This document shows positions 54,544 to 58,788 of a stretch of DNA of 64,000 nucleotides, one piece after another. Position 1 is the stretch's first letter. The number at the start of each line of letters is the position of its first letter. The stretch covers positions 729,010 to 793,009 of the forward strand of contig NZ_CM001376.1 of NCBI RefSeq assembly GCF_000237805.1, given 5' to 3'. This DNA is from Jonquetella anthropi DSM 22815. Lineage in GTDB: Bacteria; Synergistota; Synergistia; Synergistales; Dethiosulfovibrionaceae. Position numbers and translations under genes: made by a program. The notes below the pieces were generated by a model that worked only from the letters and a program-made list of their open reading frames with translations, was not told where the DNA came from and did not search any database.

Positions 54544-56522
54544 ATGACCATTGTGGAACAAGTCTTACAAGATGCGGCTCATTCCATAGAATAGTTCACC
54601 GAGGCAGAACTACAGCAGATTGAATCCCAGCTCACAAAAAGAGAAAAAAGAGGTACTCCATACTGGGAAGTGAATTGCTTGGTGCGCAACAAGGTAATTC
54701 GTGCCACGCCAGAAGAAATAGTCCGGCAGCTTTATATTCTCAAACTGCACAGTATTTACAACTATCCACTTGATTTGATGCAGGTTGAATATCCTGTTCA
54801 TTTCGGGCGTGAAGTTAAACGTGCTGACATCGTGATATTCGACAAAAAACATTCCACGACCCCGTACATTATCGTGGAACTTAAAAAGCCAAAGCTGAAA
54901 GATGGAAAAGAACAGCTTCGCTCTTACTGTAACGCTACAGGTGCGCCAATTGGTATTTGGACAAACGGCGGACAGATCTCCTACTATCACCGTAAGGATC
55001 CAAACTATTTTGAGGATATCCCCAACATTCCAAGTGCCGAAGAATCCCTTAAAGACATTTTGACCGAACGTTGGACACTTGACGATTTAGTGGCAAAAGA
55101 TAAGCTGGTCACCGAGCGTAAAAGCTTGAAAGATCTCATTTTGGAAATGGAAGACGAAGTCCTTGCAAATGCGGGCGTTGATGTTTTTGAAGAAGTTTTC
55201 AAGCTAATCTTCACCAAGCTATTCGATGAGATGCGTTCGGGCCGTAATAAGAAGCGAAACTTAGAGTTTCGTAACTATGGGGAGACAGACGAAGAGCTCA
55301 AGAAGAAAATCCAATTCTTATTTGATCAGGCAAAAGATCAATGGGACGGAGTATTTACTGGCGATGCTAAACTTTTACTATCGCCGTCTCATTTGGCAAT
55401 TTGCATTTCTAGCCTGCAGGATGTAAAGCTGTTCAACTCTAACCTTGATGTTGTGGACGACGCCTTCGAATATCTTATGAGTAAAACCAGCAAAGGAGAA
55501 AAAGGCCAGTTCTTCACTCCGCGCTATGTAATCGAAATGTGCGTCAAAATGCTTAATCCACGTGCAGACGAAACTATGATCGATACGGCAGCCGGATCCT
55601 GCGGCTTCCCTGTACATACAATGTTCCACGTGTGGCGCTCCATCATGAAAGAAAAAGAGTCAGTTCAATCCAATCTATTCACAACAGAAGAAAAACCGGA
55701 TGAATGTACATATTATGTTAATAATAATGTATTCGCAATTGACTTTGACGAAAAAACTGTTCGTGTTGCTAGAACCCTGAATCTCATTGCAGGAGACGGG
55801 CAAACGAACGTTCTTCATTTAAACACCCTCGACTACGAACACTGGGATGATACCGCTAAAGACAATGATTGGCGCTACAACGTGGGATGGAGACGCCTAT
55901 GCAGGCTGAGAACAACTAAAAACTCAAAAACTACGCATTTAACTTTGATATTGTTATGGCCAACCCGCCTTTTGCGGGGGATATTAAAGAGTCTCGCATC
56001 ATCACCAAATATGACCTTGGTAAAAACGCTAAAGGCCAGTTCCAAAGTAAAGTCGGGCGTGACATCTTATTCATTGAACGCAATTTGAATTTTCTAAAAC
56101 CGGGTGGCCGCATGGCAATCGTACTGCCACAAGGACGCTTTAACAACGCCTCTGACAAATACATTCGTGATTTCATTGCCGAGCATTGCCGAATTCTTGC
56201 TGTCGTGGGGTTACATGGGAATGTTTTCAAACCACATACTGGGACAAAGACGAGTGTTCTGTTTGTGCAAAAGTGGGATGACAAGCTCTGCCCAAAAAAA
56301 GAGGATTATCCTATCTTCTTTGCCACGATGCAAAAACCAAGCAAGGATAACTCAGGCGATAAGATCTTCGCATGCGACGAGAATGGGGTGCCGAAACTTG
56401 ATAACCACGGGCATTTATTCGTAGATCACGACCTCTATAATCACGAAGGACTCACGAACGACGGCATTGCGGAAGCATTTCAAGAGTTCGCCAAACGAGA
56501 GGGCTTATCTTTTTTTCAATGA
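54544..56522 (+). pseudogene. Fused PD-(D/E)XK nuclease / N6-adenine methylase of a BcgI-like or type I-like RM system, disrupted
   Basis: Reading from ATG 54544, an in-frame TAG at 54592-54594 (codon 17) interrupts the gene (SIE-stop-FTEAELQQIE, probably once CAG). The frame then encodes a nuclease domain with RADIVIFD and IIVELKKPK (D...ExK). A methylase domain follows, with motif I DTAAGSCGF and motif IV NPPF. Between motifs I and IV the frame shifts by one base at an A5 run (55926-55930): KNSK must continue as NYAFNFDIVMANPPF. Restored length is about 659 residues, close to BcgIA-type RM subunits. No separate hsdR is present. Confidence 0.8.
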
Positions 56523-57979
56523 GCCCATCCTTCAGCTCTGAACACTATCAGAAACTGATGGATGGGCTGGAAGCAGTAGAGAAAAACTACAAAGAAATTT
56601 GGGCAAATACTGCCAGAATAGACGCGGAGTACTTTAAAAAAGCAGACTTGCGTTTATTAAACAAGCTTAAATCTCTTAGTCTTAAAAAATTAAGTGATAT
56701 GTTCTATATAACGGACGGTATCCATGCATCTATTAATTACGATCCTAACAGTAGTGTTCACTTGCTTTCGGCCACTTCTCCTAGAAAAGGATTTGTAAAC
56801 GTTGATCGGGATGTCAGAATTTCATTAAAACAACATAAAGCGAATCCTAGAACGGCCTTACGTGAAAAAGATGTGTTAATCTCTACAGTCGGGACTATAG
56901 GTAATGTTGCTATGGTTACTAGCGACATTCTTCCGTCAAATTCTGATCGTCATGTAGCAATTCTTCGTGCTAGAGGAAAAAACGTTTTTGCCGAATGTAT
57001 GACAGTATTTTTAATGAGCAAATATGGAAAAACTCAATGTCTCAGAGAGACCTCAGGTAATGTTCAACAAAACCTTTTTTTATACATGATTAGAGACCTT
57101 TGGGTGCCTGAGTTTTCTCCGTGTTTTGAGAGTAAGGTCACTACTCTCTTCAAGGAAGCTAACAGACATCGCATTGAATCTCAACAGACTTATAGAGAAG
57201 CACAAGCTATTTTATTAAAATACCTAGATATCCCATATCATTATCATTTGTCAAATGCCCCAATATCAATTCGTGCATTGCGAGAATCGTTCCTTAAAAC
57301 AGGCCGTTTGGATGCAGAGTATTACCAGCCAAAGTATGACTCTTTGATTCAAGCCATTAGGAGTTATCACAATGGATATGCTCAATTTGCTGATGTTTTT
57401 AATCTTCGGGACCAAAACGTTGTGCCTAAGCCCAACCAAGAGTATCAATATATTGAATTGGCCAATGTAGGGAGTCTGGGACAAATCAACGATATAACAA
57501 AGGCACTCGGGAAAGAATTGCCGAGTCGTGCTCGACGTATGGTTAAAACCAATGATGTAATTCTCTCTTCCATTGAGGGTTCAATGAATAGCATCGCGTT
57601 AATTCCTAAGGAGTACAATAACGCGCTTTGCTCAACAGGTTTTTATGTACTTAACTCCGAAACTCTCAAACCAGAAGTGACGCTTATTCTCTTCCAATCG
57701 TTGTTTATGCAAGATTTGTTAAAACGTGGTTGCTCTGGAACAATTCTCACCAGTCTAAATAGAAATGACTTGTTTAATATTCCCATTCCAATCTTGGACG
57801 GCGAAATACAGAATAAAATTTCGTCGTATGTTCAAGAAAGCATGAGATACCGCCAACAAGCAAAAGAATTACTTCATCTGGCGACAGAATCTGTTGAATT
57901 GGCTATTGACAAAAGTGAAGATGACGCTGTCGTAATGCTGACAGACAGACAGACAGACAGACAGACAGACAGACACTAA
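56519..57979 (+). CDS. hsdS: RM specificity subunit with two target-recognition domains, ending in a GACA repeat
   Basis: The 486-residue protein has two homologous halves. Each starts with a R-[IL]-D-A-E-Y-[FY] module (residues 33-39 and 263-269) and ends with a long helix (about 205-236 and 428-470). These are the paired target-recognition and spacer-helix units of HsdS/BcgIB proteins. The ATG overlaps the methylase stop. The last residues (TDRQTDRQTDRH) are encoded by a (GACA)9 tract, and a third homologous module follows out of frame. GC content is clearly lower than in the housekeeping genes, indicating transfer. Confidence 0.85.
   Translation: MSPSFSSEHYQKLMDGLEAVEKNYKEIWANTARIDAEYFKKADLRLLNKLKSLSLKKLSDMFYITDGIHASINYDPNSSVHLLSATSPRKGFVNVDRDVRISLKQHKANPRTALREKDVLISTVGTIGNVAMVTSDILPSNSDRHVAILRARGKNVFAECMTVFLMSKYGKTQCLRETSGNVQQNLFLYMIRDLWVPEFSPCFESKVTTLFKEANRHRIESQQTYREAQAILLKYLDIPYHYHLSNAPISIRALRESFLKTGRLDAEYYQPKYDSLIQAIRSYHNGYAQFADVFNLRDQNVVPKPNQEYQYIELANVGSLGQINDITKALGKELPSRARRMVKTNDVILSSIEGSMNSIALIPKEYNNALCSTGFYVLNSETLKPEVTLILFQSLFMQDLLKRGCSGTILTSLNRNDLFNIPIPILDGEIQNKISSYVQESMRYRQQAKELLHLATESVELAIDKSEDDAVVMLTDRQTDRQTDRH
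57940..57975 (+). repeat. Tetranucleotide repeat (GACA)9 at the 3' end of hsdS
   Basis: Nine perfect GACA units lie inside the coding frame, immediately before the stop at 57977-57979. Adding one unit (10) or losing two (7) would bring hsdS into frame with the next module. No stop lies between: the joined frame reads ...TLIATYNQKAMYYWRLA. Tracts of this kind expand and contract by slipped-strand mispairing and are classic phase-variation switches. Confidence 0.9.
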
Positions 57980-58002
57980 TTGCTACCTATAATCAGAAAG
58001 CC

Positions 58003-58788
58003 ATGTACTACTGGCGCTTGGCAATCTTCTATTTCTTAGAAGAGTTAGGTTGTTTTGCCAACTTGCAAGAGCAACAGTGCAACTATGTTGTCAAGAATTT
58101 CTCGGAAACCTTCCGAGCTTCAGGGAGATTGGATAGCGAATACTATCAGACAAAGTATGACAAATTATTTGTGCAACTCGGAAGGCTGAATAGTAAGAAG
58201 CTATCTCACCTTGTCAGGATACAGAAATCCATTGAGCCTGGCAGCGCTGCCTACATGGAAAAAGGAATTCCGTTTGTTCGAGTACAGGATTTATCCTCAC
58301 AAGGCATTAGTGAGCCATGTATCTATCTTGACCAGAAAAGTTGCGCCGAGGCCCCTCGTCCTCAGAAAGACACAATCCTATTTTCTAAAGATGGAACTGT
58401 TGGTATTGCCTACAAAGTACAAGAGAATGATCCTGAGTTCGTAACTTCATCGGCAATTCTGCATCTGAACATGAAAACAGATGAGATGCTTCCTGATTAC
58501 CTGACATTAATGTTGAACTCCCCTATAGTTCAGCTACAAGCTGAACGAGATGCAGGCGGTTCGGTCATCAACCATTGGAAGCTGTCTGAAATTGCAGATG
58601 TGCTAGTGCCTGTGCTCTCCTACGAACAGCAAAAAGAAATCAGCTTATTAGCCCAATCGAGTTTTAGGTATAGGACAATAAGCAAGCAGTATCTCGAAAT
58701 CGCTACGCGTGCGGTTGAGGTCGCTATTGAGCAAAATGAAGACGCAGCTATCTGTTACATCGAAGATTGTGAGAATCTGCTAGTATAA
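58003..58788 (+). CDS. Third specificity module (HsdS half), out of frame with hsdS
   Basis: The 261-residue frame holds one recognition unit (RLDSEYYQTKYDKL at 42-55, FVRVQDLSSQGISEP) and a spacer helix ending AVEVAIEQNEDAA, closely parallel to AVELAIDKSEDDA at the end of hsdS. That is written here as homologous tails, hsdS reading SVELAIDKSEDDA. The ATG at 58003 lacks a good ribosome site, so it is probably expressed mainly as a fusion after repeat-number change. The fused protein would be 757 (10 units) or 753 (7 units) residues. Confidence 0.8.
   Translation: MYYWRLAIFYFLEELGCFANLQEQQCNYVVKNFSETFRASGRLDSEYYQTKYDKLFVQLGRLNSKKLSHLVRIQKSIEPGSAAYMEKGIPFVRVQDLSSQGISEPCIYLDQKSCAEAPRPQKDTILFSKDGTVGIAYKVQENDPEFVTSSAILHLNMKTDEMLPDYLTLMLNSPIVQLQAERDAGGSVINHWKLSEIADVLVPVLSYEQQKEISLLAQSSFRYRTISKQYLEIATRAVEVAIEQNEDAAICYIEDCENLLV

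Follow-up and report, generated by a model that had tools for sequence, protein, structure and literature searches.

Simple sequence repeats that change the target-recognition domains (TRDs) of restriction-modification (RM) enzymes are known from Neisseria and Helicobacter. In the type I system NgoAV of Neisseria gonorrhoeae a poly-G tract in hsdS, placed between two specificity (S) frames, decides on the fusion of the TRDs, and a change of specificity has been reported (PMC9577141, PMC6789123). In the type IIG enzymes Hpy99XIV and HpyAXVI of Helicobacter pylori a recognition domain is added at the C-terminus through a homopolymer, with a change in the methylated site that was measured in E. 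coli after correction of the frames (PMC3936762). S subunits with three TRDs have also been described, namely JHP1422 HsdS of H. pylori, in which different TRD pairs methylate two sites (PMC3936762), and MAGa6310 of Mycoplasma agalactiae (PMC3077401). The type IIB systems BcgI and BsaXI consist of an RM fusion protein and a separate S with the order TRD1-CR1-TRD2-CR2, where CR is a conserved region (PMC9159934, PMC11997821); the S halves of BsaXI can be rearranged (PMC9159934), and an (RM)2S assembly has been described (PMC11997821). More generally, phase-variable restriction-modification can alter genome-wide gene expression and phage resistance (PMC7394358). Here we analyse a stretch of 64,000 nucleotides from Jonquetella anthropi DSM 22815 (NZ_CM001376.1, positions 729,010 to 793,009; hereafter the window), in which a (GACA)9 tract lies between a two-TRD S gene, itself adjacent to a fused RM gene, and a third TRD module (module 3). 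We consider it probable that this tract acts by strand slippage as a translational switch of the S gene, in a BcgI/BsaXI-like system composed of a fused RM and an S protein.

The tract and its reading frames

An earlier reading of this DNA, made from the sequence only, had noted nine exact GACA units at the end of the hsdS frame, and all nine indeed match at 100%. The S open reading frame (ORF) ends in ...TDRQTDRQTDRH-stop and aligns from end to end with the S proteins of eight order-mates, the tract falling in the unconserved tail. We regard the tract as a non-chance feature because dinucleotide shuffling of the window, done 100 times, never produced (GACA)9, a first-order Markov simulation of 60 windows of 64 kb gave perfect tetranucleotide arrays of 3 units at most, and a pattern of five GACA units occurs nowhere else in the 1.68-Mb genome. 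The frame of module 3 is offset by +2 from that of S and stays open over 287 codons (57925-58788); its ATG at 58003 lies 27 bases 3' of the tract and 23 bases past the S stop, in agreement with the earlier description of a third module whose upstream frame is free of stops. Recomputing the repeat registers gave the same arithmetic as before, with fused proteins of 753 aa from 7 units and 757 aa from 10 units, and with an S stop 1-5 codons past the tract from 8, 9 or 11 units. As assembled, the window tract is at present set to the two-TRD S. All three R-[IL]-D-x-E-Y modules could also be located (RIDAEY at residue 33 and RLDAEY at residue 263 of S, RLDSEY in module 3).

The Pfam Methylase_S domain matches the S ORF (residues 292-439) and also module 3. 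Residues 19-57 of the window's module 3 additionally match positions 45-82 of an 82-position profile made from canonical TRD1-TRD2 connectors (E=1.1e-11). Among the relatives described below, the connector match covers positions 23-82 in L108 and L111, and in L088 and L090 it barely exceeds the conserved end before the TRD. Since module 3 starts within a copy of the central connector, fusion would make the C-terminal conserved region of TRD2 a connector in its turn. In the mechanism that we propose, translation in two of the three repeat registers would end a few codons past the repeat and give an ordinary two-TRD S, and in the third register the ribosome would continue into module 3 to give a three-TRD S. 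The latter could pair its TRDs anew, either TRD2 with TRD3 or TRD1 with TRD3, and the newly paired domains would direct the RM chains to a different or additional site. By analogy with the TRD pairs of JHP1422 and the rearrangeable halves of BsaXI, we expect the fused S to confer a bipartite site that is additional or different, and we infer both such a change of specificity upon fusion and slippage of the tract within growing populations. A single tract seems to set whether targeting involves two or three TRDs.

Three-module relatives and their junction repeats

A scan of genome contigs with the S peptide pattern of the window alone returned 31 stretches and no relative, probably because TRDs vary too much, and the RM protein was used instead. 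The corresponding scan with an RM alignment yielded at least 422 confirmed relatives. We retained the 80 best, and a third half-S, called by a profile built without module 3 and without consulting the repeats, was present in 8 of these 80. Searches at family and order level, made with an alignment of module 3, added three further Moraxellaceae loci (L182, L183 and L184), and together with the window this gives 12 loci with a two-module S followed by module 3 (Table 1). To judge from these loci, the same layout with differing repeat units is present in Bacillota, Pseudomonadota, Bacteroidota and Synergistota.

Both states predicted for such a switch occur naturally. Module 3 is out of frame in 8 of the 12 loci, the window included, and in the other four (L088, L099, L183 and L184) a three-TRD S of 734, 741, 745 or 757 aa is encoded; as in JHP1422, three TRD halves here share a single open frame, a state that the window would reach only in its other registers. 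The registers were tested in every locus except L184, and in each of these 11 loci two of them reach a stop 0-5 codons beyond the repeat and the third fuses, such that, as in NgoAV, a repeat lies inside the S reading frame and its length decides on fusion. For example, L099 and L182 are identical at 96 of 100 bases upstream and 147 of 150 bases downstream of the tract, and the former is fused and the latter split; natural alleles of both kinds with near-equal flanks thus exist already. The idea that repeat slippage could fuse a two-TRD S to a third TRD, put forward from the window alone, accordingly finds counterparts in 11 further loci of the same layout, four of them naturally in frame.

Table 1. 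Features of the window (positions as in the window) and the 11 related three-module loci with their junction repeats
Feature or locus	Organism	Positions	Strand	Description
RM gene	J. anthropi	54544-56522	+	Pfam HSDR_N_2 nuclease domain and N6_Mtase in a single chain; broken
S gene	J. anthropi	56519-57979	+	Complete two-TRD subunit TRD1-CR1-TRD2-CR2; 486 aa; ATG overlaps RM stop
(GACA)9 tract	J. anthropi	57940-57975	+	C-terminal tail of S, beyond last conserved S residues; all three frames readable
Module 3	J. anthropi	57976-58788	+	Distal central connector, KS[IV]EPGS-type TRD, C-terminal conserved region
HTH-like ORF	J. anthropi	54309-54518	+	Helix-turn-helix (HTH) by eye; 69 aa; just 5' of RM gene; neighbour only
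L088	Streptococcus cuniculipharyngis			Junction G15
L090	Moraxella sp.			Junction AG11
L091	Rodentibacter rarus			Junction G10
L093	Mannheimia haemolytica			Junction G10
L099	Moraxella lacunata			Junction AG12
L102	Parvimonas parva			Junction (GACA)13 (same array as AGAC reading)
L108	Bacteroidales metagenome-assembled genome			Junction C8
L111	Bacteroidales metagenome-assembled genome			Junction C8
L182	Moraxellaceae			Junction AG13
L183	Moraxellaceae			Junction AG19
L184	Moraxellaceae			Junction G7

The junctions were compared, over 165 bases around the end of half 2, with those of 66 two-module loci, from which 15 loci lacking two complete halves or 90 downstream bases and 6 duplicates had been left out. 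At the strict threshold a junction repeat is found in 11 of 12 three-module and 4 of 66 two-module loci (Fisher p=2e-9; such p-values overstate the evidence because the test takes related loci as independent). The four two-module cases are A8 or T8, and the strictly passing units of the 11 three-module loci are G, C, AG or GACA, with G7 in the twelfth; a G/C run of at least 7 or an array of a longer unit was seen at the junction of none of the 66 two-module loci. Allowing G/C runs of 7 and omitting A/T runs separates the two sets completely (12/12 versus 0/66), and a still more permissive setting (G/C runs from 6 bases, dinucleotide arrays from 4 units) gives 12/12 versus 1/66. With the layout, the frames, their recurrence, natural fused and split states and purifying selection (see below) directly visible in these loci, slippage between a two- and a three-TRD S is well supported as a trait of the family.

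Module-3 matches above 400 bits are confined to few genomes: 5 of 199 Moraxellaceae, 2 of 140 Pasteurellaceae, and one each of 249 in the order of Parvimonas, 393 Bacteroidales, 295 Streptococcaceae and 185 Synergistota. Matches were reported down to E<=1e-40 or 1e-60, three of the groups were represented by drawn samples, and the counts take in the starting genomes, whose own modules form part of the query. In Synergistota only the window's own module 3 exceeds 400 bits; there are five other matches, at 191-302 bits, and the frames of four of these reach 1138 aa or more, which fits RM-S fusions. The weaker matches that were fetched comprise five loci from four genomes, of which L185, L186, L187 and L189 have a two-module S and L188 is a lone module with no RM within the stretch taken. 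A (CAGCA)18 array at 1067-1156 of L189 (Streptococcaceae), just 5' of a more distant RM ORF (1232-3931), may represent an RM on/off switch. A tblastn search of plasmids with module 3 gave four weak records of less than 60% identity and no strain series, and viral contigs gave five loci, three strong matches that are all two-module and two weak ones at 25-28% identity.

Modularity, descent and the state of the RM gene

Across nine carriers (36 pairs) the median identity is 31% (24-83) for half 1, 43% (30-84) for half 2 and 57% (49-92) for half 3. Likewise, the window and Parvimonas, which have tract and flank in common, are 28% identical in S and 55% in module 3. Judged by these values, module 3 keeps a single TRD type while TRD1 and TRD2 are exchanged. 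The ratio of nonsynonymous to synonymous substitution rates (dN/dS) of module 3 ranges from 0.07 to 0.26 in six pairs, with 0.11 for L108/L111, 0.15 for L091/L093 and 0.07 for L090/L093 where both members are out of frame (dS exceeds 1 in the last two); by this measure module 3 is under purifying selection. The same TRD type forms the second half of 32 listed two-module S rows (duplicates included), which score 259-395 bits as against 406-454 bits for module 3 itself, on a profile built from nine of the 12 module-3 rows. On a tree of module-3-type halves the module-3 label requires 2 changes, against a shuffled mean of 10.7, and the module of the window pairs with that of Parvimonas (support 97/98). 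On an RM tree made with a quick method the label requires 3 changes, against a shuffled mean of 11.5, and the RM of the window falls outside the group that contains most Synergistota RMs. Given these placements, horizontal spread or repeated origin of the three-module layout is likely.

The sequence-only reading had assigned the S gene to a type I system as hsdS, an assignment that does not stand: its partner is a single HSDR_N_2 plus N6_Mtase chain, not separate HsdR and HsdM proteins, and no HsdR-sized ORF lies beside it among the ORFs of at least 80 aa at 50000-64000. RM homologues in eight order-mates are 62-68% identical and have stop-free frames, two with a separate S gene beside RM and six with S fused to RM. 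The best solved relative of the RM family is RM.BsaXI (8w0p, E=3.4e-33, profile positions 213-581), a match that spans the methyltransferase part, with the nuclease domain outside it. Because of this single-chain architecture, these homologues and this structural relative, we class the system by sequence as BcgI/BsaXI-like RM+S (type IIB/IIG), that is, nuclease and adenine methyltransferase in a single chain that lies beside S or is fused to it, the chain being broken in the window. A MADS defence system was considered and rejected, as MAD5 reached 148 bits against an NCBIfam cut-off of 400, and MAD2 192.5 and 107.2 bits against 720 for the two RM pieces. The 69-aa HTH-like ORF was dropped as a candidate controller, a tblastn search (E<=1e-3) having found no match in 18 loci, 11 of them three-module.

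The sequence-only reading had remarked neither on the fused nature of the upstream RM gene nor on its damage. This gene carries an in-frame TAG at 54592-54594, 16 codons past the ATG, and its frame shifts near 55929-55935, in the interval between methyltransferase motifs; the RM profile accordingly matches in two frames, with model positions 18-466 at 54595-55935 and 464-655 at 55929-56504. Because of this stop and frameshift the RM+S system is probably silent in the window genome, and the switch is probably without effect there at present. The earlier statement that the locus switches methylation specificity is hence to be divided: a toggle between two and three TRDs is supported for the family, and switching in this strain is doubtful. 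Among the other loci collected, L083 has S halves parted by a same-frame stop (3358-6810) and L080 an RM gene with an in-frame stop (8974-10959), both possibly decayed or recoded. Near order-mate RM-S genes, (TGCC)7 at L047 3505-3532 and (AGCA)4 at L051 11144-11159 lie at the 5' ends of ORFs of about 300 aa, which, as a guess from sequence, may be phase-variable surface-sugar genes. Two adjoining ORFs for HicB-like antitoxins, 133 and 103 aa long, occupy 59787-60542 of the window.

Alternative explanations and comparison with known systems

Several observations weigh against a working switch. The RM gene of the window is broken and its end branch is long (0.60, against 0.23-0.28 for the nearest three-module RMs), and tract lengths were seen to differ only between genomes, with one genome per species (AG11, 12, 13 and 19 in Moraxellaceae, GACA 9 versus 13). 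Both Bacteroidales loci carry a short tract of equal length, and the repeat of L184 is no longer than G7. Descent or transfer connects most of the carriers, so the 12 loci do not amount to 12 independent origins, and no methylome or biochemistry was found in the literature for any of them. Moreover, a BcgI-like RM+S pair of Bibersteinia, intact-looking, was inactive when cloned (PMC4996451), so that an intact appearance is no guarantee of activity in systems of this general kind. The lesions and the long branch favour the view that the locus is a decaying relic in this strain, with RM dead, S and tract left over and nothing switched, which is compatible with a switch at the level of the family and which we consider an even proposition. 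The genome encodes no second close RM homologue, and its other N6 methyltransferase belongs to a type I set that is located apart, at roughly 250-257 kb (L145 7273-14233), with ORFs for an HsdR-like protein of 1051 aa (labelled by eye), an HsdS of 412 aa and an HsdM of 851 aa. However, S and module 3 remain open over their full 486 and 287 codons, so such decay would be recent, and one or both RM lesions could be sequencing errors in what is a single assembly. That same circumstance might make the tract or the frame offset an assembly error too, but Parvimonas has the same tract type and junction flank and the layout recurs in 10 further loci, which renders such an error most improbable.

Module 3 could alternatively be a half-S subunit in its own right, made by reinitiation after the S stop and pairing with itself or with S, with the tract incidental or tuning the coupling. 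The short distance from the S stop to the ATG in the window agrees with this, and half-S proteins can function in BsaXI (PMC9159934) and H. pylori (PMC3936762). Yet the nearest ATG, GTG or TTG past the tract is at no conserved place: of six out-of-frame loci besides the window, module 3 has an ATG close to its start in L091, L108 and L111, and only TTG or GTG there in L090, L093 and L102. No clear Shine-Dalgarno sequence was seen by eye in the 18 bases inspected, and four loci are genuinely fused and the junction repeats would stay unexplained, for which reasons we think this explanation improbable. We give little credence to a further one, in which module 3 would be a silent cassette, donating sequence that takes the place of TRD2 through recombination. 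It would account for the two-module S rows with a second half of the module-3 type, and two such Bacteroidales halves group with module 3 of L108 and L111 (100/99), as expected from occasional exchange; but modules 2 and 3 of the window share only 41 nt at 76%, making recombination between them unlikely, module 3 is unlike the local TRD2 in all nine loci compared (26-31% identity), and the tract with its frame rules would be superfluous.

Returning to the translational switch, we tentatively raise a broader possibility, on balance doubtful, that these loci form a distinct recurring class of switches, spread over fused-RM systems from four or more phyla, in which slippage plugs a constant TRD3 behind exchanged TRD1 and TRD2. 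Fusion would then create an overlapping TRD2-TRD3 unit, and the S could hold three RM chains or provide the cell with two specificities simultaneously. Every carrier would switch to a site with a common TRD3 half, from which it is predicted that the gained sites share a half-motif. As the split form resembles a normal S gene followed by a fragment, such systems are easily overlooked.

The earlier view that a three-TRD product would be unusual needs correction in view of the three-TRD JHP1422 and the repeat-added domains of Hpy99XIV and HpyAXVI (PMC3936762). In the accessible portions of the literature on repeat-switched or three-TRD S (including PMC10423294, PMC12429846, PMC6241649 and PMC6232127) we found no report of a simple repeat by which an RM+S system alternates between two and three TRDs, which is weak evidence because the search omitted most subscription papers and the main survey of type I repeats. 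The components are known from NgoAV and H. pylori, and no report of their combination was found. JHP1422 and MAGa6310 are type I proteins thought to have originated by recombination at flanking repeats, in JHP1422 TRD2 and TRD3 are identical, and the available text describes no simple-repeat switch for either; nor is a switch described in the corresponding parts of the accounts of BcgI and BsaXI (PMC9159934, PMC11997821), which have two TRDs. Hpy99XIV and HpyAXVI are single polypeptides without a separate S, and the piece added to them is small and resembles part of a TRD, not a connector-TRD-connector module. NgoAV, finally, alternates between one and two TRDs in a type I system, whereas the locus described here would alternate between two and three in a fused-RM system.

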